Assembly (NCBI GenBank): GCA_903840265.1
Contig: CAIMFH010000190.1
Location: forward strand, 1-64,000
DNA length: 64,000 bases
DNA from: an uncultured Schlesneria sp.
Lineage (GTDB): Bacteria; Planctomycetota; Planctomycetia; Planctomycetales; Planctomycetaceae
Direction of reading: 5' to 3'
Shown: positions 7,581 to 50,300 of the stretch, piece by piece
Layout: the number at the start of each line of letters is the position of its first letter
Numbering within the stretch: the first letter of the stretch is position 1
Program-made: the position numbers and the translations under genes
Notes under the pieces: generated by a model
Told to the model about the DNA's origin: nothing
The model's input: only the letters and a program-made list of their open reading frames with translations
The model's database searches: none

Positions 7581-8027
7581 TTACTGCCTTCTTCAGATCA
7601 TCGTGGAATCGACTAAACCGATAGTGCGTGATGGACAGCTTGAATTCAAGCTGATCTCATTTCGAACAGGCCAGCGATGGCGGCCGCTGCACCGCTGAGG
7701 ACAAGCTGAATGGGATTTGAGTTCGGCGACCAAGCTGAATTATTCACGTCGGGTGCTGCCGTCACGAGACAAAACTTTAGATCTTGCATCGCCACCAGGT
7801 CCACGATCTACTGGATTCCCGCCTGTGCGGAATGACGCATTCGGCGGGTCCCGTGAACGATCCGCGCCAACTCGCTGCTCGCGCAATTCAAACTCACATG
7901 CTCCTGCATGCGGACTGACGTCTTCAGTTATCGATTGCCAAATGGTCGGCGGTTGGGGAATAATCCAAGCTGCCCGCTTGCTACTTCCCCCGCCTTGATG
8001 AGAGTTGCCGCACGGCAGCGTTACCAC

Positions 8028-11000
8028 ATGACTCACCGCTTGCGCTCTCTTTCCTTTGTTGCGATCATGATCTCGCTGTCGGCGTGGTTGCTTTGGGATG
8101 ACCCGTCAACGGCTGACGACAGGCCCGGTGTGGGAGTGACCGAGACGGAAGTCTCTAGCGACGAGAAAGAGTTTCAAGAGTTCGTCAAACCGTTGATTCG
8201 GCAACACTGCGTCCGGTGCCATAACGTCGACAACATGAAGTCGGGCATTCGCGTCGATCAGCTTTCGGCGAATCCCGAAGACCGGCAACTGTTCTTGTGG
8301 AAGGATATTCTCAAGCAGGTCGATGAGGGGGCGATGCCGCCGGATGAGGAGCCTCAGCCAAGTGATGACGAGCGAAAGAAGCTGACCGAGTGGATTCAGC
8401 GGACGATGACCGCCGCGATGGCTCGGAATACGCAGCGGAATGGCTCGGTCCGGCGACTGACGGTGTCGCAGTATCGAAACACGTTGCGAGACCTGTTGGG
8501 CCTGGATGAAGATCTGACCGAGGTTCTGCCGCCCGATGGGATCAGCAAAGATGGCTTCGCCAACAATGCTCAGACGATGGTGCTGTCGCCATTGCAGGTT
8601 GAGGCCTATTTCGACATCGCCGAAAAGTCGCTCGACCTGTGCATCGTCGATGAGCAGTCCAAGCCTGCGATTCAGAACTTTCGCATGGACCTGGGTCGCA
8701 AGATCAACCCCACCCCCTGCCCTGACAACTTGGTGTTGGGAGCGAACAGCTTTCTGCTGAACAACGCGGACTTCACGGTGACGCAACTGACTCCACAGAA
8801 GCCGTTCGCGTACGAGCCGTTTTTCATGCAGACGAAGTTCGATTTCATCGAAGGCTACGTCGGGAACGACACGATCCGCGAGTGGCGCAAGTTCGACAGC
8901 ATCTATCATGCGGTGTTTGCCTGCCTGCGCGGCTCGCCCGGATACCCGAAAGGTGAGGCGTTCCAAACGGTTCCTGAAGGGTTGCTGTTGCGACCGGCGA
9001 TCCCGAATTCTGAGATCTTTGGCGTCTCGAATACCTATGGCCCGATGGCGAACTTCAAGATCTCGTTGCGAGAGCTACCAGATCGCGGCAACTTTCGAGT
9101 GACGGTGAAAGCCGCTCGTTACGACGATGCCCTGTTACTGAATCCGTCGAGTGACGCTGCCGCAGGTAACACGGCCGCGAAGATGGTGACAGTCGACAAC
9201 CTGGAGAAATCTGCTGAATCCACGCTCACGATTCCCGAACCGGGCATTTATCAGATCGATGTTTCGCGCATCGCCGGAGAAAGCAAAGGGGTCTTTTCGT
9301 TACAGTTGGGCGAGCGACAGTTTGCGGGGACACTGCCGGATTACAAGAAGCCTGGTTCGAATGATGTGGTCACCCAATCAGCCAGTTCGTTCGCGGTGAT
9401 GCGCCTGCCGCAGGGGAGCACCAAGCTGGTTGCTCGTTACGGCGATAATTCGACGCTGAGGAGTCTGGTGTTCAGTCGGGTTGACGACGACAGCATTCTG
9501 GCCCAACGATTTAGAGCATTTGAAGGTCGCCTGCCATCGGTGGGAGTCTACATGGGGCTGCGTCGTGACTGCGGAAGTACTCTGGCGCGAGTGAGTACGC
9601 CTCAACCCGTGGCGAATGTATTTGGTGAGTTAACCTTCTCTGGCCCGATCAATGACTTTCCCAGTCCTGAGGTCGAGAAAGACAACGTCAACTACCTGGC
9701 GGGAATTCGCGAGATCGGTATTCGTAGCGAATACACCGATGGTCGCGATATGCCGCGCCTGTTGATTCGGTCGATCGAATTCGAAGGACCCTACTACGCG
9801 GAGTGGCCGCCGGTGCCGCACCGTAATATCTTCATCGAGTCGCCGCATAAGAACGAACCCGAGACGTACGCTCGCGAGATCATTCAGTCGTTCACGACTC
9901 GGGCCTTTCGGAGACCCGCTACCGACGACGAACAGGCCGCGCTTTTCAAGATCTGGAAGCAGACGTACGCCGAGAACCAGGATTTTTCACAGAGCATCAA
10001 GGACGCCCTGCTGGCCGTGCTGACGGCACCTCAGTTCTTGTTCCTGATCGAAAACAGTTCGGGCCCTGAACCCGAAGACCTGACAGATTATGAGCTGGCG
10101 GCGAAGCTGTCGTACTTCTTATGGAATACGGCTTCTGATCAACAACTGCTGGAGTTGGCGGCCAAGAATTCATTGCGTGAGTCGATCGATGTGCAAGTGG
10201 AACGGATGATCCAAGATCAACGCTTCGAGCAGGGGATGCAGCAGTTCGTCTCGCAGTGGCTGAGCCTCGACAAGTTCGACGTGGTGTCGATCGACGAGAA
10301 ACGATTTCCGAAGTTGAGTCGCGTGGCCAAAAGCCATTTGCGGCAGGAGCCAATTCAGTTCGTACGGCATCTGATTCAACACAACCTGCCCCTAAAGAAC
10401 TTGATTCAGGCCGATTTCATCATGGCCGATGAAGTGGTCGCCAGTTACTACAACCTGGGAGATCGTACCGAGAGCGGATTCAATTTTGTGCCGCTGAAGC
10501 ATGAGAACGAAAACCTGGGGGGCGTGCTGACCTCGGCCGGGATTCTGGCCGGGCTGTCTGATGGACGTGAACCCAACCCGGTCAAACGAGGAGCGTGGTT
10601 CGCTCGCAAGATTGTCGCCGAACCACCAGACGACCCGCCGCCAAACGTTCCCAAGCTGCCGGAAGATGACGCCGCCAAGTTGACTCTGCGGCAAAGGCTG
10701 GAGCAGCATCGCAATCAAGAAGGCTGCGCGAAGTGCCACACGGGGATCGATCCGTGGGGCTTGCCGTTCGAGAAATACGATGCGGCCGGCCGCTTCCGCA
10801 ATGAAGCTGTCGAGTCGTCTTCGACGTTGCCGGACGGAGCCGAGGTGAGCGACGTGAACAGCCTGAAGGCTCATCTGATCAACGACCGATTGGACCAGGT
10901 CGCTTTCAGTTATTTGAAGCATCTGGCGTGTTATGCCACTGGTCGCAGCCTGACCTACAACGAGCTGGTGTCTCTGCGGAAGGAAAGCCAGGAACTGCGA

Positions 11001-11069
11001 GCGCAGGGATATGGAACTCGCGATTTGCTGAAGTTCGTGGTGACGAGTGACATCTTCATGAAGAAGTGA
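8028..11069 (+). CDS. DUF1592/DUF1588/DUF1595-type cytochrome-c-like protein
   Basis: From ATG 8028: signal peptide, CVRCH and CAKCH (CxxCH) motifs, FTTRAFRRPATDDE, LSYFLWNTASDQQLLELA, GVLTSAGILAGLSDGREPNPVKRGAW, which are hallmark planctomycete domains. Confidence 0.92.
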   Translation: MTHRLRSLSFVAIMISLSAWLLWDDPSTADDRPGVGVTETEVSSDEKEFQEFVKPLIRQHCVRCHNVDNMKSGIRVDQLSANPEDRQLFLWKDILKQVDEGAMPPDEEPQPSDDERKKLTEWIQRTMTAAMARNTQRNGSVRRLTVSQYRNTLRDLLGLDEDLTEVLPPDGISKDGFANNAQTMVLSPLQVEAYFDIAEKSLDLCIVDEQSKPAIQNFRMDLGRKINPTPCPDNLVLGANSFLLNNADFTVTQLTPQKPFAYEPFFMQTKFDFIEGYVGNDTIREWRKFDSIYHAVFACLRGSPGYPKGEAFQTVPEGLLLRPAIPNSEIFGVSNTYGPMANFKISLRELPDRGNFRVTVKAARYDDALLLNPSSDAAAGNTAAKMVTVDNLEKSAESTLTIPEPGIYQIDVSRIAGESKGVFSLQLGERQFAGTLPDYKKPGSNDVVTQSASSFAVMRLPQGSTKLVARYGDNSTLRSLVFSRVDDDSILAQRFRAFEGRLPSVGVYMGLRRDCGSTLARVSTPQPVANVFGELTFSGPINDFPSPEVEKDNVNYLAGIREIGIRSEYTDGRDMPRLLIRSIEFEGPYYAEWPPVPHRNIFIESPHKNEPETYAREIIQSFTTRAFRRPATDDEQAALFKIWKQTYAENQDFSQSIKDALLAVLTAPQFLFLIENSSGPEPEDLTDYELAAKLSYFLWNTASDQQLLELAAKNSLRESIDVQVERMIQDQRFEQGMQQFVSQWLSLDKFDVVSIDEKRFPKLSRVAKSHLRQEPIQFVRHLIQHNLPLKNLIQADFIMADEVVASYYNLGDRTESGFNFVPLKHENENLGGVLTSAGILAGLSDGREPNPVKRGAWFARKIVAEPPDDPPPNVPKLPEDDAAKLTLRQRLEQHRNQEGCAKCHTGIDPWGLPFEKYDAAGRFRNEAVESSSTLPDGAEVSDVNSLKAHLINDRLDQVAFSYLKHLACYATGRSLTYNELVSLRKESQELRAQGYGTRDLLKFVVTSDIFMKK

Positions 11070-21946: not shown

Positions 21947-23419
21947 ATGCATCGGCGATTTCGAGATTGGATTCGACCGTGGAATTGGTCGACTCGACGT
22001 TGGGCCTTCGTCTTAGTGGGCCTGATGTTGGCATCTCCGTTCTTGACTCGTTGGTACTGCCTGTGGCAGATCCCCGATGTGGCCCTGCCGTTTGACGAAG
22101 CGGAGTTTCTACGCGGCGAGGATGTGGCTGAAGAAGATGATGCATTCGTTGAGTATCAAGCAGCGATTCACACGTTCACCGCCAACCGTTCGAAATGGAT
22201 GATCAACGAAAGCTCTGCTGGCGACCCTTGGGATTCGGTCGATAAGGCGCTGGTACATCCAGATCAGCCACGAGATTCGAAGCTGGATGAGTGGGTCCGC
22301 AAGAACAGCATCACCCTAGACCATTATCGCCGCGGCGGTGAAAAGCCGCGGGCCAAGGGACCTTCGCTCCGTACGATGGACGACATCGACACGACGCTGA
22401 CGCCGCACAGTTATCTGCGGCGTCTGGCGAGATTGGCACGTGTGCAAAGCCTGATCCGCGAGGCGAATGACCAGGTCGACACCGCGTGGCAGTGGCTTCG
22501 GGCCATTCTGCAGAGTTCGCGCCACGCGGAAGCCACACGAATTGATGTCTGTCGTTCGATTGGGATAGAAATTCGGGCTCATGCATTCCAAGGAATTGTT
22601 CACTGGTCGCAGTCACCATTGGTGACTGCAGATCAACTGCGTTCTGCCCGAAAGGAAGTTCAAGTCGAGGCCACGCGGCGGACAACCCGCTCTGACTGCT
22701 CCAAAGGTGAATACTTGTGTAAACGCAATACCTTGCTTCGAAAGGACGCACCAGATTATCTTTTACCGTCATGGAATAAGGGGATCGCGGCGAACCCCGC
22801 CTGGCTGCCTTTGAAGCAGATTGGCCTCTGGTTTTTGGGACAACCGGAGGGAATGCTGCGGGTGCAAAGGCAATTGCTCGTCAACAACGGGCTCGCCATT
22901 GATCTGCCACTATCTCAACGCGCGGCCACCGTGCCCTGCGACAGCGCTCTGGTCTTGGAGGTCGCCGATAAACGAGTAAGCGGACAAATGAAGCCAGAGG
23001 CACTCGCTAGGGTACTCGATGATGCGAACTGGCGAGTAGAGGGGACTTCGTTGTCCGTCAGCAGACGCTACCTCGATGAGTCGATCCACCGCGACGAGAC
23101 GCGTCTCTTAGCATTGATAGTCGTGTTGGCGTGCCAAGAATATTACCGTGATCACACGGAGTTCCCTGCCGCAATAAAAGATTTGATTCCAGCTTATTTG
23201 GACGCAATCCCTAGTGATCCAATGCTCTCCTCTGTCGTTCCTATCACGTATCGACGCAATCCAGATGGAAATGCTGTTGTTGGGAGCGTTGACGAGAATG
23301 GGATCGATGACAACAACGTTACGACGGTCTTAGACCGACTAGCAAAAGATGTAGGCTATCTCATCTCGAAACCGTCGCAACGAAACCCCTCGGCATTGGC
23401 GCCAAGCAATATTCCATAG
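21947..23419 (+). CDS. Membrane-anchored protein with GspG-like C-terminal motif (paralog 1 of 3)
   Basis: Single N-terminal TM; IPDVALPFDEAEF...DDAFVEYQAA; C-terminal QEYYRDHTEFPAAIKDLIPAYLDAIPSDP...ITYRRNPDGNAVVGSVDENGIDDNN, the same architecture as the genes at 24419 and 25884. Confidence 0.75.
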   Translation: MHRRFRDWIRPWNWSTRRWAFVLVGLMLASPFLTRWYCLWQIPDVALPFDEAEFLRGEDVAEEDDAFVEYQAAIHTFTANRSKWMINESSAGDPWDSVDKALVHPDQPRDSKLDEWVRKNSITLDHYRRGGEKPRAKGPSLRTMDDIDTTLTPHSYLRRLARLARVQSLIREANDQVDTAWQWLRAILQSSRHAEATRIDVCRSIGIEIRAHAFQGIVHWSQSPLVTADQLRSARKEVQVEATRRTTRSDCSKGEYLCKRNTLLRKDAPDYLLPSWNKGIAANPAWLPLKQIGLWFLGQPEGMLRVQRQLLVNNGLAIDLPLSQRAATVPCDSALVLEVADKRVSGQMKPEALARVLDDANWRVEGTSLSVSRRYLDESIHRDETRLLALIVVLACQEYYRDHTEFPAAIKDLIPAYLDAIPSDPMLSSVVPITYRRNPDGNAVVGSVDENGIDDNNVTTVLDRLAKDVGYLISKPSQRNPSALAPSNIP

Positions 23420-23434
23420 GAAGACTACTCGGCC

Positions 23435-24388
23435 ATGAACGTGAAGAAGCCTACGCAGCGCTGCGGGAGGACCGTATCGACCGTCGATATTTCGGCGGAT
23501 GGAACGTTGTACCTTTGGGGTGGTGGATCACCGGGTGGCGATTGTTCCATATCGATCTGTGATGCCAACACTCACAAAGTCATGCAAAACCTGAAAGGTC
23601 ACAAGAAGCCAGTTCTGTGGGCTCGGTTTCTGGCAGACGGATCAGTCGTGTCATTCAGCTTTGATTCGCACGTCTGCCGCTGGACGAGGGATGGTGAGTT
23701 GGCGGCATCGAACGAAGTTCATCTTTCGCACCGTGCCGATGGTTTCGCGGTATCCAACAACGGCAAGATCGCCGTCTCTGGCGACTATCGCGGCGAGATC
23801 TCGGGCTGGCAATTGAAAGACGGCACACAGGCGTTCACGGTTCAGGATGAAGGGGCTCAGCGTCAAATCTGGGCCATCGCGATCTCTCCAAACAGCAAGC
23901 AGTTTGTGAGCGGTGGTGCTGGCGGCAACATTCGAGTCTGGGATGTTGCGAAGCGGAGCGAGAAATCGTGTGTGGAGCTAGGTCTGGGCCAACATGTCCA
24001 AGGGCTCGACTGGCACCCAGAAGGCAAGCGTTTCGCAGCGGCGATTGCTCCCGATGGTTCGGCCGCCAAAGGATCCAAGAGCCGAGTGGCCATCTTCGAG
24101 GGAACGAAGGAAGTGGCGTCGCTTTCGACAGGCGGTCATCAGCCGCAGTACTGCCGATTCAGCAGTGATGGCAGCCTGCTGGCCGCTGCGGGTGGAGGGA
24201 CAGACCGAGGTGGCAACGACTCGAAGGCGAACTGCGTGATTCATGTCTGGGAGGTGGAATCGGGCAATGAGATCGCCGCCTTCACCGGACATTCGGGACT
24301 GGTCCGAGACCTCGCATTTTCGCCTGACTCGAAATACCTGATGTCGGCGGGATGGGATGACACGTTGCGCACCTGGCAAATCGGCTAA
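23435..24388 (+). CDS. WD40 repeat beta-propeller protein
   Basis: Repeated GH-x(n)-WD-like blades: LKGHKKPVLWARFLADG, IWAIAISPNSKQFVSGGAGGNIRVWDVA, FTGHSGLVRDLAFSPDSKYLMSAGWDDTLRTWQI. No signal peptide. Confidence 0.9.
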   Translation: MNVKKPTQRCGRTVSTVDISADGTLYLWGGGSPGGDCSISICDANTHKVMQNLKGHKKPVLWARFLADGSVVSFSFDSHVCRWTRDGELAASNEVHLSHRADGFAVSNNGKIAVSGDYRGEISGWQLKDGTQAFTVQDEGAQRQIWAIAISPNSKQFVSGGAGGNIRVWDVAKRSEKSCVELGLGQHVQGLDWHPEGKRFAAAIAPDGSAAKGSKSRVAIFEGTKEVASLSTGGHQPQYCRFSSDGSLLAAAGGGTDRGGNDSKANCVIHVWEVESGNEIAAFTGHSGLVRDLAFSPDSKYLMSAGWDDTLRTWQIG

Positions 24389-24418
24389 GGATGTGGTGCA
24401 CCTGACAAGCGGATTGGG

Positions 24419-25870
24419 ATGAAGATGACGGCGAACATCAGTGAACCCAAGCAGACGAACGACAGCGAATCAGTCGCATGGTGGAACCCGCTGCATTGGC
24501 CCGCGGCGATCTGGGTGTTTTTGATCGTGTTGGGATTGATGACGAGTCCGTTTGTTATCCGGGCCTTCATGCTGGCTGGCATTCCTGACATGCCTGAGCG
24601 GTTTGATGAAGTTGCCTATTCGACGTGGGATGTCCCTGCCGCGGACGATGCCTTCACGTACTATCGAGAAGCCGCGGCTTTGCATCAACAGATCGTGACA
24701 GAACTTCGGTCCGGAGGCCGGACGGAAGTTCGTGAACCGGAAGATTCCTTGGCTGTGCTTAAGCAGGGTTGGACGGAAGCCACCGAACCGACGAAACAGT
24801 GGTTGGACCTGCATCAAGAATCGCTGGCCGTCTGGCGGCGCGGCACAGAGAAGGACCGGGGCCTGAATCTGTTGCCATCCAAACTGTCTTACACGACGAT
24901 TCTGAATCTCATCCAGGACCAACGAACGTTCGCGAGACTGGCGATGTTGCAGGAATCGCGAGCTATCAACGATGGAGAACTCGCCGAAGCCCATCAGTGG
25001 ACACGCGCCGCGTTTCGCTGCGGCGGACATACCAGCCATCGTGGCTGCCTTATCCAAGGTTTGGTTGGCGTCGCGATTCATGCGATCTCATCACAAGGAC
25101 ACGCTCATTGGGCCGAACAGCCTGGTGTGACCACTGAACAACTGCAGCAAGCTCTGGTCGAAGTTCAATCCGATGGCAAACTCTATGAATCGCTCTCCAA
25201 CACCTTGAAGTCGGAGTATCTCTCAACCAGGAACTCACTCCAATCTCGGGACTGGGCGAATCTGATTGCTCCAGTGAACACCGGTGGGCTGAAAAATATA
25301 GCCGGACCAAGGGCGATGAGATTGCTTTATTGGGTCGTTGGCGAACCGGAAGTCTCGATCCGAGTGTTTCGACAGATCCTCGCCAATCAACTGCCTGAGA
25401 TCGACAGGCCCATAGATTTGCGCCGCAAGATGGTCGGGTCGGGTACCACCATGCTGTTCGAGCCAGATCCTTCCATTTCGCAGCCCTCTGGCCAACTCGA
25501 GCCCGCAAGAATCGATCGAGCGATCAAGCGTTCAGCACTGACACGGATGCTGCTCCCTTCGCTCGCGCAAATCGATTCTGCGTTCCTCGCGCGACGAGGG
25601 CGGCAAGCGGCCTTGGAGGCTCTGCTGGCGGCTCAAGCTTACCGCCGCGATCATGGCGAGTTCCCCGAAAGTCTCGCTCAACTTGTTCCGAACTACCTGG
25701 CCGCAATCCCGGTCGATCCTTGTGATCCTGCCGGCGGCCCGTTGCTCTACCGTCGCGATGAGCCCACTAGAGCGGTCATCTGGAGCATGGGCGATGACCG
25801 CGCGGATGGAGGCGGCGTGATTGACGCCACTAACGGGCGTCCGGCGGATGTGGGTTTTGAGCTGAAATGA
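24419..25870 (+). CDS. Membrane-anchored protein with GspG-like C-terminal motif (paralog 2 of 3)
   Basis: N-terminal TM WPAAIWVFLIVLGLMTSPFVIRAFM; C-terminal AYRRDHGEFPESLAQLVPNYLAAIPVDPCDPAGGPLLYRRDEPTRAVIWSMGDDRADGGG. Confidence 0.8.
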   Translation: MKMTANISEPKQTNDSESVAWWNPLHWPAAIWVFLIVLGLMTSPFVIRAFMLAGIPDMPERFDEVAYSTWDVPAADDAFTYYREAAALHQQIVTELRSGGRTEVREPEDSLAVLKQGWTEATEPTKQWLDLHQESLAVWRRGTEKDRGLNLLPSKLSYTTILNLIQDQRTFARLAMLQESRAINDGELAEAHQWTRAAFRCGGHTSHRGCLIQGLVGVAIHAISSQGHAHWAEQPGVTTEQLQQALVEVQSDGKLYESLSNTLKSEYLSTRNSLQSRDWANLIAPVNTGGLKNIAGPRAMRLLYWVVGEPEVSIRVFRQILANQLPEIDRPIDLRRKMVGSGTTMLFEPDPSISQPSGQLEPARIDRAIKRSALTRMLLPSLAQIDSAFLARRGRQAALEALLAAQAYRRDHGEFPESLAQLVPNYLAAIPVDPCDPAGGPLLYRRDEPTRAVIWSMGDDRADGGGVIDATNGRPADVGFELK

Positions 25871-25883
25871 GTCGGAGAATTCA

Positions 25884-27332
25884 ATGACCTCAAAACAGCT
25901 TGTTGCAGCAGAACCGCAAGAAGACGGTTCATCAGTCGCGTGGTGGAATCCGCTCCATTGGCCCGCGGGGATCTGGGTGCTGTTGATCGCACTGGGGTTG
26001 ATGACGACGCCGTTTGTCATCCGAGCCATCATTCTGGCGGGCATTCCCGAGATGCCAGAGCCTTTTGACGAAATCGCTTATTCGACATGGGAAGTTCCTG
26101 CTATCGACGATGCCTTCACTTACTATCGAGAAGCAGCGGCCCTGCATCAGAAACTGGTGGCCGATCTGAAAGCACAGGGGATTACCGACATCCGTGAGCC
26201 GGAAGATTCTCTCCTTATCCTGCAGGAGGGCTGGTCTGAAGCAACGGATTCGACCAAGAAGTGGCTGGAATTGCATCAGGAGTCACTGGCCGCCTGGCGG
26301 CGCGGGACCGAGAAAGATCAGGGGCTCAATGTGCTGCCGTCCAAGCTGACAATCGACTCAATCTGGAATGTGGTCCAAGAGCAACGGAAGTTCGTGAGAC
26401 TGGCGATACTCGAAGAATCGCGGCTGATCGCCAGCGGAGAACTGGACGAAGCTCGACAGTGGGCTCGCGCTGGATTTCGTAGCGGCGGGCATACCAGCAA
26501 CCGCGGCTGCATTATGCAGGGACTGGTTGGCGTGGCCATCCATACAGTTTCTTCACAGGGGCTCGCGCGGTGGGCCGAGCATCCCGGCGTGACATCGGCG
26601 CAACTTCAGCAAGCCCTGGTCGAGGTCCGATCCGACGAAAAGCTGTATGAATCGCTATCGAATATTCTGAAGTCGGAATATCTCTATATGCGAAACGTGA
26701 CTCGATCTTCCGACTGGAATCTCGAGATTGCGCCGACTAATCCCAGCGGAGCCACTTCCGCAGCAGAGGCCAAGATCATGAAGATGCTGTATTGGACCGT
26801 CGGCGAGCCCGAAGTCTGCGCCCGCATCATGCGACAGATCCTTGCCAATCAGCTTCCCGAAATCGACAAGCCCATCGCTTTGCGCCGCAAGATGGTCGGA
26901 TCGGGTGCCACATTGCTGTTTGAACTTGATCCGTCAATCTCGCTGCCGGAGGGACAACTCGATCCTGCAGGGATCGAGCGAGCGATCAAACGTTCTTCGC
27001 TCACTCGGATGGTGCTGGCCGCGCTGGACCAACTCGATATCGCTTTTCTGAGACGACAAGCACGCCAAGCGACGCTCGAAGCGCTATTGGCGACGCAGGC
27101 GTATCGTCGAGACCACGGCGAGTTCCCGGAGAGCCTGGCTCAACTCGTCCCGAAATATCTGGCAGCAGTCCCGTTAGACCCCTGTGATCCCGCGAGAGGC
27201 CCCCTTCTCTATCGCCGCGATGAGCCGGCCAAGGCTGTCGTCTGGAGTGTGAGTCAAGACCAGGCCGATGATGGCGGCGACATCGACACCACAAAGGGTC
27301 TTGCGCCAGACTTGGGGTTTGAACTCAAGTGA
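25884..27332 (+). CDS. Membrane-anchored protein with GspG-like C-terminal motif (paralog 3 of 3)
   Basis: Full-length, high similarity to the 24419-25870 product (recent tandem duplicate); ends AYRRDHGEFPESLAQLVPKYLAAVPLDPCDPARGPLLYRRDEPAKAVVWSVSQDQADDGGD. Confidence 0.8.
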   Translation: MTSKQLVAAEPQEDGSSVAWWNPLHWPAGIWVLLIALGLMTTPFVIRAIILAGIPEMPEPFDEIAYSTWEVPAIDDAFTYYREAAALHQKLVADLKAQGITDIREPEDSLLILQEGWSEATDSTKKWLELHQESLAAWRRGTEKDQGLNVLPSKLTIDSIWNVVQEQRKFVRLAILEESRLIASGELDEARQWARAGFRSGGHTSNRGCIMQGLVGVAIHTVSSQGLARWAEHPGVTSAQLQQALVEVRSDEKLYESLSNILKSEYLYMRNVTRSSDWNLEIAPTNPSGATSAAEAKIMKMLYWTVGEPEVCARIMRQILANQLPEIDKPIALRRKMVGSGATLLFELDPSISLPEGQLDPAGIERAIKRSSLTRMVLAALDQLDIAFLRRQARQATLEALLATQAYRRDHGEFPESLAQLVPKYLAAVPLDPCDPARGPLLYRRDEPAKAVVWSVSQDQADDGGDIDTTKGLAPDLGFELK

Positions 27333-36820: not shown

Positions 36821-39580
36821 TCATCGCCGCCTCACTGGCCACCACAGGTTGAAGTCGATTCTTCTGAGAGCAACGTCGAGAATGAACAGGATCAAAGCGG
36901 CGGTCGCCAAGTAAGGCCACAGGGGCGTCGTGCGCTGGACTGTGCGTGCCACCGAAGCGGCCTCGCGGGCCGAAGTGTTTTTTGAAGCTGTCGAGGACGC
37001 GGGCGCGAACAGGTCTTCGGGAAGCGGGTTAAAGCGTCCGGCCGTCGAATCTGCGAGAGACTTCAGCAGATCGTTGTTCGTAGGATGCAGCCGCAGTTCG
37101 TCTGGATAACCAACGATCAAGCCGCGTGTTTGCTGATGCAGTAAAGTGCCGCCCGCGGTCTTCTGAGTCAGATTGAGGTGATAGGCACCCGACGCTGGCG
37201 TGTCGAATTCGGCGACGTAACGTCCGGGGGCCGTTTGTTTCAGTTCGATTTTCCGTTGACCGAGTTGTGGATCGATAATCGTCGCCTCGGTCGTGGCTTG
37301 ATTCAGAAACTTTCCGGCCGGGTCGATGGCATCCATCGTGACGGTCGCTTTGCGACGATCTTGTTTCACATCGACGATGACTCCTTTCACATCGTTCTTA
37401 CGCATCGACTGCCGGATTACTTGTGCCCAGAACTTGCTGTAACCGGGCCACGTCAACCATTCGGCTCCCCAGCGGCTCTTGGCGTCTGACGTGAAAGCGA
37501 CTGTTGTTCCCAAGCCGTACCGCCACCAGGCCAACAGGGGATCACCTGCCTCAGTTGCCAGGATCAGTTCGCAAGTTGCCTTGGGGCGAGTGACCACATA
37601 GCCGAGCAGAAACGGGGCTGTTTCGAAATCGATATCGGCGAGTACTGGAGTTGGCCGCACGACTTGAGGCACGAATGGCTGTTCATTGATCGCGGACTTG
37701 CTGGCCGTCATGGTCTCTTTGGCGAAGATCTGGGGCAGAGAACTGGGATCGAGTGCTTCGAAGTAACGCCCCTGCCCGATCTTGGCGATTTCCTCCAGCA
37801 GCTTGGAATCACAACCTTCACCAACAGCCACGGTCGAACAGGTGATTCGAGCCGACGCCATGCTTTGCGCAATCCCTTCGAAGTGGCCGGGCGAGGAAAC
37901 TCCGTCCGTCAGCATGATGACATGCTTCAGCTTGGCGGTCGTTCCGACGAGCGTGTTGTAGGCCTCTTCCATTGCCGGGGCCATGGTCGTGCCGCCTCCG
38001 GCTTCGACGCGGCTGATATCGTCGATGATTCGAGCTTTGTTGGCTGCCGACTGCATGTCGCTGACCCAGTAAAAATTACCGTCGAACGCGATCACGCCCA
38101 ATTGATCACGCGGGCCAAGCAATTCGGCGGCACTCTTCGCGGCCTCTTTGGCCATCTCAATCTTCTCGCCACCCATCGATCCCGATTTGTCGATGACCAG
38201 CACCATTCCCAACGATGGCTTCTCTTTTTCTTTTTCGAAGTCGGATCGTACCGGCAGAATTTCTTCGAGGACGGTTTTGTAATAGCCCCCTAACCCGAAC
38301 GATTGATCGCCACCCAGCATCATGAAGCCGCCGCCCAGGTCCTGAACATAAGTGCGGGCCAGTTCCATCTGACGTTGCGACAAGCTGGTGGCCGGAACAT
38401 TAGAGAGGGCTAGCAACTCGTAGTTCTGCAAATCAGCCAGCGTGTCGGGCATCCCTTCAATTGGCCGCACATCCACTTCGATCTCTTCCTGCTGCAACGC
38501 CCAGACAAGTTGTTGAGCAAGCTTGGGATCGCTTTCAATCAGCAGTACGCGGGGTTTACCCGTCGTGAAGACCAGCCCCGATTCCGTGTTGTTGTCGAGC
38601 AGCGTGTCGGTCTTCAATCCGCCGATTTTCACCGTGTATTGAGCAAGTCGCTCGCCCGTGATCGACTGCTGAAATCGAAAGCGGTTCTCGCCTGATTTCA
38701 ACTTACGATTCTCGCTGTGCACCTTGTGGGCTCCGCGAAACACTTCCACCAAGCCTTCGTCTTCGTGATTCGAATTGATGACCACTTCGACATAGAACGG
38801 TTCCCCTTCGCGGACCTGTGCGGGGACTTCGACAGCCGCGACTTGCACTTCGGCATCGTCGCGAACTTTGAGCGGAACGGTGTCGATCGGAATCAACGTG
38901 GAGGACTTTGCGGCCTTCTCTCCCGCACGGGCCAACACGGACTTCGCAACGGATGCAGTTCCCAGTGCGGCTTGAAGTGCATCGCCGATTGTCTGGTTTC
39001 CATCTGTCATGATGACGATGCGCGGAACGTAGTCGGGTGGCATGGCCCCGGCTGCCGAGCGAATTGCAGCCGAGAGGTCCGTCGCATTGCGATCCAATTC
39101 AACTCCCAATGAGTTGGGTGCTGTTGACTCCGCCGCGCTGATTGGCGTTGGTAGTGCAAGCTTGGGACGTTCTTGCGAGAGTGATCCCGTCTGAGCGGCA
39201 AAAGGGAGGAACATCACCTTGTGAGTGCCACCCTGCCCTTCGGCGAAGGCTTTATCCAAATACTCATCGACTTGAGACTTTCGATCGGCGTCGGCTTTCT
39301 CGTTCGCGGTGGGATCCACTTCTTCCTCGGCAACGCTCAGACTTTGATCGATCGCGACGATGACAAATTGCTGAGTTGTCGGCCGCAGCAGCGTCATTCC
39401 GCTGAGCGCCAATGCCAGCAGCGAGACGATCACGCAGCGGGTCAGCAGCGACACCAGCAACTGACGAGGCGGGAAGTCAGACAGCGACCGGCGGAAGTAC
39501 CATACCAACAGCGGTACGACCATCAGCAGCGTGGCAATCCACCACGGATGGATCAATTCCAGTGATAACGATTCGAGCAT
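36821..39580 (-). CDS. VWA-domain membrane protein (glutamine-amidotransferase-like/VWA type)
   Basis: N- and C-terminal TM segments; MVLVIDKSGSMGGEKIEMAKEAAKSAAELLGPRDQLGVIAFD (MIDAS DxSxS); HVIMLTDGVSS. Confidence 0.88.
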   Translation of the reverse strand: MLESLSLELIHPWWIATLLMVVPLLVWYFRRSLSDFPPRQLLVSLLTRCVIVSLLALALSGMTLLRPTTQQFVIVAIDQSLSVAEEEVDPTANEKADADRKSQVDEYLDKAFAEGQGGTHKVMFLPFAAQTGSLSQERPKLALPTPISAAESTAPNSLGVELDRNATDLSAAIRSAAGAMPPDYVPRIVIMTDGNQTIGDALQAALGTASVAKSVLARAGEKAAKSSTLIPIDTVPLKVRDDAEVQVAAVEVPAQVREGEPFYVEVVINSNHEDEGLVEVFRGAHKVHSENRKLKSGENRFRFQQSITGERLAQYTVKIGGLKTDTLLDNNTESGLVFTTGKPRVLLIESDPKLAQQLVWALQQEEIEVDVRPIEGMPDTLADLQNYELLALSNVPATSLSQRQMELARTYVQDLGGGFMMLGGDQSFGLGGYYKTVLEEILPVRSDFEKEKEKPSLGMVLVIDKSGSMGGEKIEMAKEAAKSAAELLGPRDQLGVIAFDGNFYWVSDMQSAANKARIIDDISRVEAGGGTTMAPAMEEAYNTLVGTTAKLKHVIMLTDGVSSPGHFEGIAQSMASARITCSTVAVGEGCDSKLLEEIAKIGQGRYFEALDPSSLPQIFAKETMTASKSAINEQPFVPQVVRPTPVLADIDFETAPFLLGYVVTRPKATCELILATEAGDPLLAWWRYGLGTTVAFTSDAKSRWGAEWLTWPGYSKFWAQVIRQSMRKNDVKGVIVDVKQDRRKATVTMDAIDPAGKFLNQATTEATIIDPQLGQRKIELKQTAPGRYVAEFDTPASGAYHLNLTQKTAGGTLLHQQTRGLIVGYPDELRLHPTNNDLLKSLADSTAGRFNPLPEDLFAPASSTASKNTSAREAASVARTVQRTTPLWPYLATAALILFILDVALRRIDFNLWWPVRRR

Positions 39581-39616
39581 AAAAACGTCTCGTGTCAGGG
39601 ACAATTCCCGTGAGCG

Positions 39617-41623
39617 CTAACTGATAACTCGTCGCTGGTACATCACCCATTCGAGCGTCGTCAAAACCAATCCCGTCAGCAGTAACCAGAACCAGACAGG
39701 TCGCGAACCGAGGCCCGCCAGGACAGGCGAGGTCGTGACGGTATTCGCAAGGAGTTCTTCAGGCGGGCGAATATCTGACTCGGTGGCGTTTGCGAGATTG
39801 CAGGCAATCTCCAAAAGGGGCGATTCGTCTGCCTGTGTTTTGTCACTTATCTTTGGTGCGGTGGCCTTACCAGAATCTGCCAATCCCGGATCTTCAATAA
39901 TGCTCCAGACACCGCAATGGTCGAGGGGGCCGATCGTCATCCGTTCGATTGCTGGCAGCGGCTTGAGTTCGCCAGCGGGACTCTTCAACAGTAGCGATGC
40001 GCTTTTGGCGGGACGAGCAAAATCGCTGCTGGAAATCGTCGCCAATGATCCCGCGGCTAGCGATTCTCGCAAATCCTGTTTGTTTCCAGCGAACCAGTGC
40101 AGCGCGTTGGCCACGGTGATCGGGAACGCCGTTCGAAGCGGCAGATCTCCCTTATCGAGGTTCACCGTCAGCACCAGCACGCGACCTTCGGGACGATTGA
40201 CTGCGAAGAACAGAGGCTCCTTCGTCACCGCTTCAGCCAAGATCAGCGTCTGCTCAGGAAGGATTGGGGTCAATGCTCGCGCTTCGGGCATCAAGACATT
40301 GTCCATGCGGACGTGCGACATCAGCGGGCTGTCCTTGTCCTGCTTTGTCACGATCGGATTGGCGATCTGCTCACCAATGGCGAACAAATCCGTGGCGTTG
40401 GCGGGATCGATCACGAATACTTGGCCTGCAGGAAGCTTCTCCGGAGCCACACGGTGATAGACCACAACGGTGCCAGCAGGAACTGTGGCGGGAGCTTCAG
40501 CAACCACGGTCAGCTTTACGAGCGGATTGACTTCGAAGACTTTTTGCAGAAACAGATTGCCTGACGTGACGAGCAACACGGGTTGAATTTCACGTCGAGG
40601 CAACACAGCAGATGCCGTGTTGTCGGCAGCCAAGGCATCGTCATGCTTCAATGTTGCCAGCAGACGGCCCCCCGAAGCGGATGTCTTTTCGAAGACCTGA
40701 CTCCACTTGCCGCCGGCGTCCAACTTCAAGGGAACGACGTCGATCGGTTCATCGTTCAAGTCAACTTCGAACCGACATTCGACCGGTTGATCGGAGGCGT
40801 TGGTGACCTCCGCGAGGATTTCATAACCTAGCGGATCAACCAGGCTGCGACGAACCTGGAATTGAGTGATCCCCAAATTGGCGGCTCGAGTTCCGATGAT
40901 CTGCAGCTTGACCGGAGCTTGGGCGGTGGAGTTAGTTGTTGGAGACGTCGCCAGTGTGTCAGTTGTGCCAGGGGGCTCATGCCCCCCGCTCGGAGGAGCA
41001 AGAACGGAACTCAACTCTTCCACGCCGCTGAATCGACCGTCGGAGAAAACAACCACTTCCTGCTGCTTGCCGTCCTGCCGTTCACCCAGCAATCGGCGAG
41101 CCAGTGCCACAGCATCAGCAACCTGAGATGGCCCATCAGTCGTTGTCAGAGATTGAACGGCACTGCTGACCGTCTTCTGGCGAGACGTGAATCCAACAAT
41201 CACTTGAGGCTGTATTCCTGCAGCGACAAGAGCGAACTCATCGCGATGTCGCATCCCAGCGATCCATTGTTCCGCCTGCCGTTTGGCCTCAGCGAGACGA
41301 GTCGGTTTGACATCCGTTGCGTTCATACTCGCCGAGTTATCGACGACAATGACGATGCGCCGAGCCGAACGGGCTTCCCAGAAGAAGTAGGGATCGGCGA
41401 CCGCAAATGCCAACAGAGCCAACATGGCCAGTTGCAACAACAGCGAAACCAAATGCCGCAACCGCTGCCAGATCGAACGCGGGTTCTGCTCTTCGAGCAC
41501 CTGCGTCCAGAACATGACGGTCGACACCGGAAGGCGCCGTAATCGGATCTTCAAGATGTAGAAGATGACGATCGGCACACCAAGCAGCAGCCACAACAAT
41601 GAACCAGGAGATTCAAAAAACAT
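39617..41623 (-). CDS. BatA/aerotolerance-N-terminal VWA membrane protein
   Basis: MFFESPGSLLWLLLGVPIVIFYILKIRLRRLPVSTVMFW...RIVIVVDNSASMNATDVKPTRLAEAKRQAEQWI. Confidence 0.88.
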   Translation of the reverse strand: MFFESPGSLLWLLLGVPIVIFYILKIRLRRLPVSTVMFWTQVLEEQNPRSIWQRLRHLVSLLLQLAMLALLAFAVADPYFFWEARSARRIVIVVDNSASMNATDVKPTRLAEAKRQAEQWIAGMRHRDEFALVAAGIQPQVIVGFTSRQKTVSSAVQSLTTTDGPSQVADAVALARRLLGERQDGKQQEVVVFSDGRFSGVEELSSVLAPPSGGHEPPGTTDTLATSPTTNSTAQAPVKLQIIGTRAANLGITQFQVRRSLVDPLGYEILAEVTNASDQPVECRFEVDLNDEPIDVVPLKLDAGGKWSQVFEKTSASGGRLLATLKHDDALAADNTASAVLPRREIQPVLLVTSGNLFLQKVFEVNPLVKLTVVAEAPATVPAGTVVVYHRVAPEKLPAGQVFVIDPANATDLFAIGEQIANPIVTKQDKDSPLMSHVRMDNVLMPEARALTPILPEQTLILAEAVTKEPLFFAVNRPEGRVLVLTVNLDKGDLPLRTAFPITVANALHWFAGNKQDLRESLAAGSLATISSSDFARPAKSASLLLKSPAGELKPLPAIERMTIGPLDHCGVWSIIEDPGLADSGKATAPKISDKTQADESPLLEIACNLANATESDIRPPEELLANTVTTSPVLAGLGSRPVWFWLLLTGLVLTTLEWVMYQRRVIS

Positions 41624-44381: not shown

Positions 44382-47300
44382 ATGGTGTTCCTTCCCACTC
44401 GACCGCGAACGTGGATGGTTCTGGCTTGGACGTTCAGTCTGGCGTATTCGTTCCCGGTGATCGGTCAAGAAGCCGACCCCGAGGAAGTACAGGCGGTGAC
44501 GACGAACTCGAAGTTCGTGACGGTCCTGGAAAAGAATCCTCGCCGCGGCACGGCCCTCGACAAGGTCTATGGCTTCCATGTCGAACGCGGGACGCTGGAC
44601 GGTTTTATTAAGACTTATCGCGAAAAAGCAGCGGCAGCCCAGGGAGCCGCCGCCTCGTCGTCATGGATGATCGTTGGCTTGATGGAATCGCTGCGCGGTC
44701 AAGATGCCGCATCGGTCGAAGCGTTCAGCAAGGCCGAGGAACTGGACGACAAGAACTATCTTTCGCCGTACTACCTGGGACAAGCATTGGTTCTAGTCGG
44801 GCAACCCGACAAAGCCGCCGAGGCACTCGAACGAGCCATTCAGCGTAAACCGGCACCGGCCGATCAACTGGAAGTGTTCCAAGCGCTTGGCCGGGTTTAC
44901 CAGCGAGCCCAAAAAAATGACAAAGCGCTCGAAGTCTGGAATCGGTTGGAAAAGCAATTCCCCAATGACGCACGTGTGCAGGAGCAGATCGCCACGACGT
45001 TGTTGGAAGAGAACGAATTCACCGCTGCGTTGCCACGGTTTGAGAATCTGGCCAAGACATCCAAAGATAAATATCGTCAGTCACAGTTCCAGATGGAAGC
45101 GTCTGAGATCAAAGTTCGCTTGGGCAAGTCGGACGAAGCGATCAAGGAATTCGAGAAGCTCCTTGGACAATTGAATCCCGACAACTGGCTGTTCCGCGAA
45201 GTTCGGCGGCGAATCGAAAACGTCTACCTGCGGACCGACGACCAGGCGGGGTTGATCGGTTACTACGAAGCGTGGACAAAAAAGAATCCTGAAGATTTGG
45301 AAGCGATCTCGCGATTGGCTCGACTGCTGGCGGGTCTGGGTCGCGGTGCGGAAGCCCAGTCCTGGCTCGAAAAGGGATTGAAGTCGGCTCCTTCACGAAA
45401 GGAACTGCGAAACGCCTTGATCGCGCAATTGGTGTACGAACAGAAGTTTCCCGAAGCGATCGTGCAGTATGAGCAACTCGATAAGTACGAACCAAATAAT
45501 CCTGACACGCTGCGGGACTGGGGCCGCCTGATTCTGAAAGATACGAAACGCGACGAGGCAACTCGAAAGAAAGATGCCGGGACCGTCTGGCGTCGACTGA
45601 CAACCGCCAAGCCCAAAGATCCGCTGATCGCTTCGCAAGTCGCCGAACTATTTCGTCATGCCGAAATGATCGACGACGCATTGGCCCTTTATCGCAAGTC
45701 GATTGAGTTGTCCCCGGAATCGGCCCAGTACAAGGAATATTTGGGCGAGTATTTTCACTCGCTGCAGCGCAAAGACGAAGCGATGGCAACTTGGCGGCAG
45801 ATGGCCGAGGGGAAGGCCAAGACGGCCGCGAATCTGGCGCGTCTCGCGGAAGTTCTCGCGGGATTTGGCTACCTCGGTGAAGCGGTCGACGCGAACGCCG
45901 AAGCCTGCAAGCTGGACCCCAAGGAGATCAACCTGCAGATCAAGCAAGCGGATCTGCTGTCTCAAGCGGAAAAGCATGACGAATCGCTCAAGCAATTAGC
46001 GGTCGTCCAGAAGCTGGCGGCCAATGATGAAGAGCGCGAAGCATGGCTGCAGCGCGAGTTGAAGGAACTTCAAACGCTGGAACAACTGAAGGATCACATC
46101 GCGGCGGCCCGGATGGAGCTCGAGGCCCTCCCTGCCCCGGCATCTGACAAGGAAAAAGCGGCACGGTCAGAGAAGTGGTTCTGGCTGGCTCGGGCCCATG
46201 AAGCCGAACGTCAGTTGAAAGAGGCCGCGGAAGCGGTTTCGAAAGCGGCTGATTTGGCGCCGCAATCAGTTCCAATCCTGATGTCAACGGCTCGGATTCT
46301 TGAAGCACAACAGAATCTGCTGGCGGCCGTTGAGACTAACACCAAGCTCGCCGCGATCGATCGTCGCTACCGGACGGAGTACTTGAAGAAGGTGGCTCAA
46401 CTGGAAGTCCAGTTGGGTCGACGCGAGAAAGCGATCCAGGCGGGTCGTGATGTTCTGGCCGCTGCGCCCGGCAATCCCGAACTGTATGAATTCTTCTCGC
46501 AGCTTTGTTTCCAGCTGGGAGAAAACGAGGAAGGGCTGCAGGCCTTGCGGCGGTCTGTTCGCGTGAACCCAACCGAGCCCAAGGGCTTGCTGCTGCTGGC
46601 ATCGGCGCTGGGTGAACAGTTTCGCACAGGCGAATCGATCGAACTGTATTGGCGAGCCTTCGACAAAGCCAACAACTTGGAAGACCGCCTGTCGGTCGTG
46701 CCGCGGCTGACGGAGTTGTACCTGCAAACAAATCAATTCGACCGATTGCTGGAACGATTGGAGAATCGCCGTCGCGAGCCGAACCAACAGCGGGAAATGA
46801 CCATTTGTATCGCGCAGGCTTACCAATCAGCGGGTGACGACGGAAACGCGCGACAGGAGTTGGAAAAGCTGCTGACCGAAGACACGCGAGACACGCAGTT
46901 GTTGCAGCAACTGGTGAAGCTCTGCGAACAGGACGGCGATCTGGAAGCGGCGATCCGCTTCCAGCATCAGATGACCAAGATCGCTCCCGGCAAGGAAGGG
47001 ACGATGCGTCTGGCCCAGTTGCTGATGAAATCGGGTGATTCCGAAGAGGCGACGGCCTTGCTGACGCGAGCAACCGCCGACGAGAAGGATCCCGAACAAC
47101 TGATTAAGTCGGTCGACTCGCTGTTGACTCAGAAGAACTACGATCAGGTGCTGGGCATTCTCGAGCGGCTGGTTCGCGACCAACCCAAGAACTGGGAACT
47201 GCTGTATCGCCAGGGGGTCGCCCTCGCGTCGACGAAACCCGAAGAAGCAACACGTCGATTTGAAACCATTCTGGCGATGAACATCAATGATGATGAACAG

Positions 47301-50300
47301 ACGCTGATGGCAAAAAACCAAGCGAAAAAGAATACAGGGCGGCAGCGGAGTCCCGCGATCCAATTTCGCCAGATGAACCCGTTCATGCAACGCCTGCAGT
47401 ACACGCATACAATCCGCCAAGCCGTTGGGCTGGACCAGAACAACTACTACGGCGGCGGCTATCCACAACAGCAACAGTTCTGGGCTCCACACGATTTCGG
47501 CACGGCACGGCTGGCCAGTTTGGCCTGGTTGCAACTGTTCGCGAAAAATGCTGGCAAAGAAGAGGATTTCTTGAAGCAACGCCGGACGGCCGCGGAGAAA
47601 TCGACGGATCGTCGTCCCACCATCGATGCGTACCACCTGGCAGCATTGAGGAACGACAGCAAAGAGCAGTATGAGATTCTGAAGAAGCTGTCGCAGCAAC
47701 CGGGGGCCGACATCGGGATCAAGTCGACGTATCTGACTTTGCTTGGTTCGCGTGGCGGTCCTCAGGCGACCGCCGTCGTGAACGAGGAAACTGGTGAACG
47801 CGAAATAAAACTCGACCCACTGGACAAGGAAGAACTCGAACATGTCCTGGCGATCTACAAAGAGCTTGACGATGCCACATCAATGATGAACTACGGCCAG
47901 ACTTTCCTGGAGGTGGTCGCCGCCGAGCTCAAACGAGCCGGTCACACCGAAGATGCCGACCAGCTGTTTCAACAGACGTTGCAGGCAGCGAAGTCCCCCA
48001 TGCAGATTGCGTCGGTCATGGCGGGAACGATTCAACGCGGCGACTATGTGACGACGATGAAGCTGCTGGATCGGCTGGCCGAGATGAAATCGGACACTTC
48101 TGCGAACGCGACTGCTGGCGGCTACAACAATTATTCTCAGTACGTTTCCACGCCGCAGTATCAAGCGCAGATCCTGGCGCAATTGATGGCCAAACGCGCC
48201 CAGAAGAAGGAGCTCGGCGATGTCCTGGGACTGTGGGATCGATATCTGGCAATCGCGGTCACCAGACACGACGCCGACAAGAAGCTCACAGCCGCCACAC
48301 GAAAACGAAATGCCAACAATAATCCGTACGGCTCTCCAGGCTACTTTTATATCTGGCGAGGCAACAACCAGCAGCACGAGCAAGTCGACTTCCCCACTCC
48401 GAATGCCATCTATGATCATTCGTCCCTGCAGATGTTGCGACAAACATTCGCGGTCTACAAAGACGTCGATTCCACAAAAACTCTGATCGATCATTTCCAA
48501 CAGAAATTAAAAGACGATAAGACCCCGGCGCAGCAACAGATTTTCTGGAAGCTGGGACTCGGCTATCTTTTCTGGTGGAACGAGGACAGGGATGATTCTC
48601 TGACCGTGTTGACGGAAGCCACCAATTCGCTGGCCGGCGATGAAGAGATGGCGTTCGAGCTGGCTCGGCTGCATGAGAAGCGAGGAGATCCCCAGGAGGC
48701 ATTGGCAATCATCGAGGCGCTTCCGGCCGCTGATCAGCAGACGATGCAAAAGCGTGAGATTGCGGCCCTGCGACTGTCGGTCAATAGCGGAAACATCGAT
48801 CGCGCGCGGACCGCTGCCGAGCGGCTGTTCGGACTGCGCCTCGATTCCAATCTGCAGATCCAACTCTCCAGACAAATGCATCAACTCGGCATGCACGAAC
48901 AGGCGGAAGCAGTGCTGTCGCGCGCGGGACGCCAGGCAGGCAACAAGACCGATGTCTTGATGAACTTGATGCAGCAGTATCAATCGCAAGGTAAGAACGA
49001 CGTTGCGACTCAGATCGCTCATCAATTGCTGCGACGATCTGCTGGCAGCGCGGCGCAGTATGCATTGAATAGTGGACGGCGATCGGGACGCGACGACAGC
49101 GGAGCACGCCAGCAAGCGCTGCAGGTCTTGAAGCGCTCAGGCAAGCTGCCAGAAATGACCAAGAAGGTCGAAGATCAACTGGCGCACTCACCGAAGTCTC
49201 AAAAGCTGATCGAGACGCTGATTGAATACTACACGGCCGCAGACAATTCCAAGAAGGTGGCCGAATTGTCGGCGAAATACGCAGAAACGAAGGGAGACGA
49301 TCCGCAATTCCGCTATCAGTTGGCGATGCAACTGGTTCGAGACGGCAAGCACAAGGAGGCACTGGAACACTTTAAGGTCTCTCTCAAGAAGGATCCTCGG
49401 CTGCTGCGCAATGGATACTGGGAGATTCAGAATGCGTTTGAGAGCGCCGATAAACTGGATGACCTGGCGACCCTCTACGAAGAGATCGACCTGAAGTCGT
49501 TCCGACAAAGCCCCTACGAGCTGACCAACCTGATCAGCAATATGTCGCAGCGCGACAAGACAAAGGATCGATCGATCTCGCTGTTCAAGAAAGCCTGGGC
49601 GGATCTGCCGGACCAACGGGCGCAATTACTATCCAATCTGAACAGTGATGTGTTCTGGAATATGCCGGAGATCTACGACTACGCACGACAGGGCATTATT
49701 CCGACAGAGACATCACTCGCTCAAACAGGAGCTTGGACAGGGTTCGGCAATATCCAAAGTTGGAACAACGAAGGGAAGATGACCACGCTGCTAAGCCGTA
49801 TCCTGGCCATGGCGGCGCAGTCGACAAAACTGGACGCCTTAGCAACCGAGGTCGCAGAGGCTCGCGGCAAGCTCAAGAACTGGCAAGCGGGTGAACCGCT
49901 GCTCGCCATGATCGATTTGCGTCGAGGTCGAGTCGACGAAGGCAAAGCGGTTTTTGAAAAGTTGTTGCCGACCATGAAGGGGGTCCAGCAGGTCGGCTAC
50001 TACACGCATTGGGAGATCGCCCAGGAACTGATGGCCCATGAATCCTGTATCGACCTGGCTATTCTCTATCTTGAAGCCGCGACCAAAGAATCAGAGTTGA
50101 TGAACGGCAACGAGTTCACTTACACGCCTGGAAAAGCACTCGTGAACTTGTACCGCCAACGAGGACGAAAAGACGATGCGCGACGCGTCATCCTGAAGGC
50201 GATCAATGACAAGACATCTCGGAACTATGGAAACAGAGAATACGAAGTCTATCAAAAGCTTCGAAATACGATTGCGCTCGGTAAAGAAGTACGCACGCTG

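Follow-up and report, generated by a model that had tools for sequence, protein, structure and literature searches.

A probably recombining tandem array of predicted membrane-anchored planctomycete proteins with a GspG-like C-terminal domain, interrupted by a non-conserved WD40 gene

The window analysed here, 64,000 nucleotides of a contig from an uncultured Schlesneria sp., contains a cluster of four plus-strand genes that is flanked by glpD on one side and lnt on the other, both on the minus strand (Table 1). Each of the four opens with ATG, and the gaps between them measure 15, 30 and 13 nt. Genes 1, 3 and 4 are paralogues, homologous over their full length, and gene 2 encodes a WD40 protein in which hydropathy analysis found no hydrophobic segment; in all of this the preliminary description, spacing included, was accurate. 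A search for promoter- and terminator-like sites found none above chance that would split the cluster, which makes it plausible that the four genes form a putative operon.

Table 1. Features of the glpD-lnt locus, in window coordinates
Feature	Position	Strand	Basis
Gene 1, family protein, 490 aa	21947..23419	+	ORF; homologous full-length to genes 3 and 4
Divergent mosaic interior	22169..27084		Identity profile, change points and segment dS against RYN_441
Gene 1 GspG-like domain, ~residues 377-475	23075..23371	+	Alignment; hhalign
Gene 2, WD40 beta-propeller, 317 aa, without TM	23435..24388	+	Pfam WD40 1.1e-25
Gene 3, family protein, 483 aa	24419..25870	+	ORF, homology, tree
Gene 3 N-terminal hydrophobic segment, ~residues 25-48	24491..24562	+	Hydropathy; low-confidence model helices 29-53
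Gene 3 GspG-like domain, residues 383-483	25565..25867	+	hhalign; shuffled controls
Gene 4, family protein, 482 aa	25884..27332	+	ORF, homology; sister to L004:5974-7419, tree 100/98
Gene 4 N-terminal hydrophobic segment, residues 32-50	25977..26033	+	Hydropathy
Gene 4 GspG-like domain, residues 382-482	27027..27329	+	hhalign; shuffled controls

At the protein level, identity is 70% between genes 3 and 4 and about 31% between gene 1 and each of them, over nearly its full length (pairwise E values among the three, 1e-51 to 0). An N-terminal motif (IPDVALPFDE, IPDMPERFDE or IPEMPEPFDE, followed by DDAF) and a C-terminal block (Y-RDH-EFP---L-P-YL-A-P-DP...YRR...D), both of which had been noticed earlier, are visible in the alignment and largely invariant. 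The single N-terminal transmembrane (TM) segment that had been assigned to every paralogue stands for genes 3 and 4, which pass the hydropathy threshold, but is less clear for gene 1, where the corresponding segment aligns with those of genes 3 and 4, is less hydrophobic and falls below a simple hydropathy threshold for a TM segment. In near relatives, alignment and hydropathy show a shared layout: one hydrophobic segment near the N-terminus, then a middle that is helical, and finally the C-terminal block; in more distant relatives the match begins at about profile position 50-60.

The window also contains other genes away from this locus. A planctomycete cytochrome-type multidomain protein (PSCyt1, PSD2-5, PSCyt3) lies at 7908-11069 (+), and two neighbouring genes with VWA domains, one of which also encodes an N-terminal BatA domain, occupy 36821-41623 (-). 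A single ORF of 4522 aa at 44382-57950 (+) carries DUF1581/DUF1583 domains and long arrays of TPRs; no tandem DNA repeats were found within it.

Searches of Pfam and NCBIfam assigned genes 1, 3 and 4 to no family, PADLOC models of anti-phage defence systems gave no match to the family proteins, and a literature search found no description of the paralogue family. Homologues are nonetheless widespread: of 60 related genomes, 41 contained a match to a profile of genes 1, 3 and 4 at E<=1e-5, and of 350 genomes drawn from across the phylum, 65 contained a match to a 46-member profile at E<=1e-20. Judged from these searches, the family appears to be planctomycete-wide, unnamed and undescribed. Two or three of its genes often stand in tandem, in neighbourhoods that differ from locus to locus, and tandem copies are present at ten further loci. 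The association of a family locus with glpD and lnt is partly conserved in the genus. At one locus (L045, G009:C25) a lone family gene adjoins glpD in divergent orientation, and lnt and moeA lie close by.

The paralogues had been described as having a GspG-like C-terminal block and no N-terminal prepilin motif, and for the last ~100 aa of the family profile comparison supports a resemblance at the level of sequence. Aligned with hhalign, this region from 46 family members matched a set of 25 planctomycete T2SSG-type proteins (filtered for a prepilin motif; L107 and L108 among them resemble other pilin-type proteins) with a probability of 97.1 and an E value of 1.4e-10 over 92 columns in register, a match that takes in the helix ahead of the motif block, and the portion from GEFP onward gave 95.2 by itself. 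The likeness could be convergent, a short Pro/Asp/Gly-rich motif reflecting neither common descent nor a shared fold, and this would fit with the failure of more general searches. None of the window proteins scored over the Pfam T2SSG cut-off (the best of the 46 members reached 12.4 bits, E 0.17), and a profile search of the PDB with the family returned chance matches only, GspG not among them. AlphaFold models computed from five-sequence alignments had a pLDDT of 42.5 at full length and 53.1 for the C-terminal region; the topology of the latter (a long helix, a short helix and a beta hairpin) is in keeping with a pseudopilin, albeit at a pLDDT of 53, and a Foldseek search of the PDB with such low-confidence models, which found no match, is for that reason uninformative. 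We nevertheless regard convergence as unlikely, given that some 92 columns, the preceding helix included, align in register, and that the likeness is missing from every control: other segments of the family proteins gave probabilities of at most 0.3 and a reversed control 0.1, and none of 100 controls in which the match columns were shuffled came near (best score 17.4, as against 57.6 for the real profile). A bridging protein also exists, L131 (in G053), a TM-anchored relative of 361 aa that scores 57.9 bits with the family C-terminal profile and matches Pfam T2SSG at E 0.002, with a T2SSG score that lies just under the 21-bit cut-off alone and reaches it only by the addition of neighbouring pieces. 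This sequence (L131:1827-2912, minus strand), whose tail matches both profiles, should be of use for an improved profile.

Resemblance to GspG does not make these proteins pseudopilins. The prepilin motif was absent at the TM segment in all 46 members examined, and two matches to a prepilin regular expression in two relatives fall at positions 68 and 86, neither at a leader. Two genomes with strong family members (G050, E 2e-38; G057, E 2e-70) have no T2SSG match at E<=0.05, a result that leaves room for a divergent GspG, and others (G010, G014, G041 and more) possess GspG and no family member. Because the proteins carry no prepilin leader, and because the family and recognisable GspG occur without each other, we conclude from sequence comparison that they are not pseudopilins. 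They might still belong to the type II secretion (T2SS) machinery as accessory components, the tail docking on the pseudopilus, as the GspG-like tail itself and the presence of a T2SSG protein in 53 of 60 relatives would allow. This is quite improbable in view of the same independent occurrence of the two, and at the loci read, where neighbours are incompletely annotated, no recurring neighbour gene points to a gsp cluster. The GspG of the source genome is encoded on a different contig from the array. Two of the T2SSG matches (G015:C1:1277766-1278101 and G021:C1:4599681-4600016) lie within longer open frames, one of 456 aa and the other of 613 aa; counted from its prepilin motif the G015 protein has 138 aa, and its 456-aa frame may be a mere upstream extension.

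In the sister species, Schlesneria sp. RYN_441 (L004), which is the nearest sequenced relative, the flanks are the same, but the interval between glpD and lnt contains just a pair of paralogues, separated by 9 nt, and lacks a WD40 gene. Gene 1 clusters with the first RYN_441 gene (L004:4489-5961) with support of 100/100. Flanking genes of the two genomes differ by a dS of 0.39-0.47. Inside gene 1, near 22140-22170, identity drops abruptly from about 90% to about 64%; it recovers at 27084, inside gene 4, to about 91%, so that the divergent interior is bounded by breakpoints at about codons 65-75 of gene 1 and codon 401 of gene 4. In gene 1, dS is 0.39 for codons 1-64 and 1.82 for the remainder. 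Measured against the second RYN_441 gene, it is 0.44 in codons 16-75 and 1.56 in codons 76-400 of gene 3, and 0.73 in codons 81-400 and 0.36 in codons 401-482 of gene 4. Flank-level values (0.36-0.44) are found only at the start of gene 1, the start of gene 3 and the end of gene 4, with 0.7-1.8 in the remaining interior, and both change points beat all 200 codon shuffles (lnL gains of 34.9 and 16.7, against maxima of 7.6 and 9.4).

The second RYN_441 gene combines the anchor of gene 3 with the tail of gene 4, both at flank-level divergence, as expected if recombination between genes 3 and 4 had removed one copy there. Our reading is that RYN_441 may have lost a copy in this way, with further exchange in the middle, and this agrees with the tree, in which the gene 3 lineage predates the separation of gene 4 from the RYN_441 gene. 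That genes 3 and 4 are recent tandem duplicates was considered and rejected, as the tree pairs gene 4 with the sister-species gene and leaves gene 3 outside. Family proteins outpace their neighbours at other loci too, and the divergent interior might on that account reflect relaxed or fast evolution in place, with no recombination. We give this explanation little credence: synonymous sites are also two to four times more diverged, with abrupt steps within genes, and relaxed constraint on the protein would not yield synonymous steps of this kind. The array has instead probably been reshuffled by recombination inside its paralogues, a conclusion drawn from two genomes only, which cannot give the direction of exchange. 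Three other sets of loci were compared, and there the dS of family genes equals that of the flanks or exceeds it by up to about three times, a moderate divergence at most, and the idea that mosaic evolution is a general rule at every locus was dropped; the mosaic is clear only at the glpD-lnt locus and should not be generalised.

The closest relative of the gene 2 WD40 protein, a 56% identical protein in genome G015, is encoded among other genes and away from any paralogue. It was the only close relative in a search that scored the leading candidates of each genome, with distant WD40 proteins left out of the count, across 171 genomes of the taxonomic family and 350 sampled phylum genomes. At the other fetched loci of the paralogue family no relative of gene 2 adjoins a family gene. 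PADLOC gave gene 2 a partial match only, to PDLC02919 (HEAT-ARM_XIII) over residues 51-171. The proposal that the WD40 protein and the paralogues make up one system finds no support in the comparison, as their adjacency is not conserved in RYN_441, in G015 or at the other loci. A dedicated four-gene system, in which a cytoplasmic WD40 propeller would scaffold or regulate three membrane proteins, could draw on the shared strand, the gaps of 13-30 nt, the lack of an above-chance terminator inside the cluster and the purifying selection on gene 2 relative to its G015 counterpart (dN/dS 0.15). Set against a WD40 gene that is missing from the sister-species locus, has one close relative in a further genome, not beside a family gene, and has no counterpart next to the family elsewhere, such a system is highly improbable. 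What lies here is a small, probably recombining array and an unrelated propeller gene, with no conserved four-gene system. The best reading of gene 2 is that of a recent passenger, at most co-transcribed with its neighbours; its gain in the source genome would be simpler than repeated loss. It has no import beyond that genome.

Taken together, the observations are explained, with moderate probability, by a tandem array of a phylum-wide family of tethered, non-polymerising, GspG-like docking proteins that undergoes tandem recombination and carries the WD40 gene as a passenger. A short stretch at the N-terminus of each family protein would lie in the cytoplasm, followed by a single TM anchor, and the periplasmic part would consist of a helical (TPR-like) middle and a C-terminal domain that is homologous to the globular half of GspG, the major pseudopilin of the T2SS, without its prepilin leader. 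The proteins would sit singly in the inner membrane without polymerising, their GspG-like domain and helical middle would serve as periplasmic protein-docking modules, and recombination between tandem copies would exchange blocks within genes and change copy number. Judged from the architecture, a tethered periplasmic docking or scaffold role is the most likely one, a view that we hold with moderate to low confidence. More tentatively, and somewhat doubtfully, we speculate that the GspG domain has been reused as a non-polymerising, membrane-tethered docking domain and that the arrays of this large family use homologous recombination to reshuffle blocks of anchor, middle and tail and so diversify binding. 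If the link to GspG holds, a pseudopilin domain would have a use apart from pili, as the terminal domain of a tethered protein, and many planctomycete "hypothetical proteins", of a family that is spread over the phylum without a Pfam or NCBIfam model, would gain a name and a testable fold.

Among bacterial WD40 propeller proteins, gene 2 is an ordinary single propeller, unusual only in its position. The DUF1559 proteins of planctomycetes form large paralogue families with pilin-type features; the family described here is likewise a large planctomycete paralogue family, and no DUF1559 match was found in any of its members. Compared with GspG itself, the family proteins are long (about 480 aa), place the TM anchor at a distance from the C-terminal domain with a helical middle, and have neither the prepilin leader nor the GFTLxE motif. 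What they share with GspG (T2SSG, PF08334) is the helix, FP-x-L-P-YL-x-x-P-DP, YRR/Y and an S-x-G-x-[ND]-x-x-D-D loop, all in register. Alteration of the aspartates of the GspG calcium site impairs T2SS (PMC10574481), and the acidic S-x-G-x-N-x-x-D-D loop of the family aligns with the region of that site, a correspondence at the level of the alignment.
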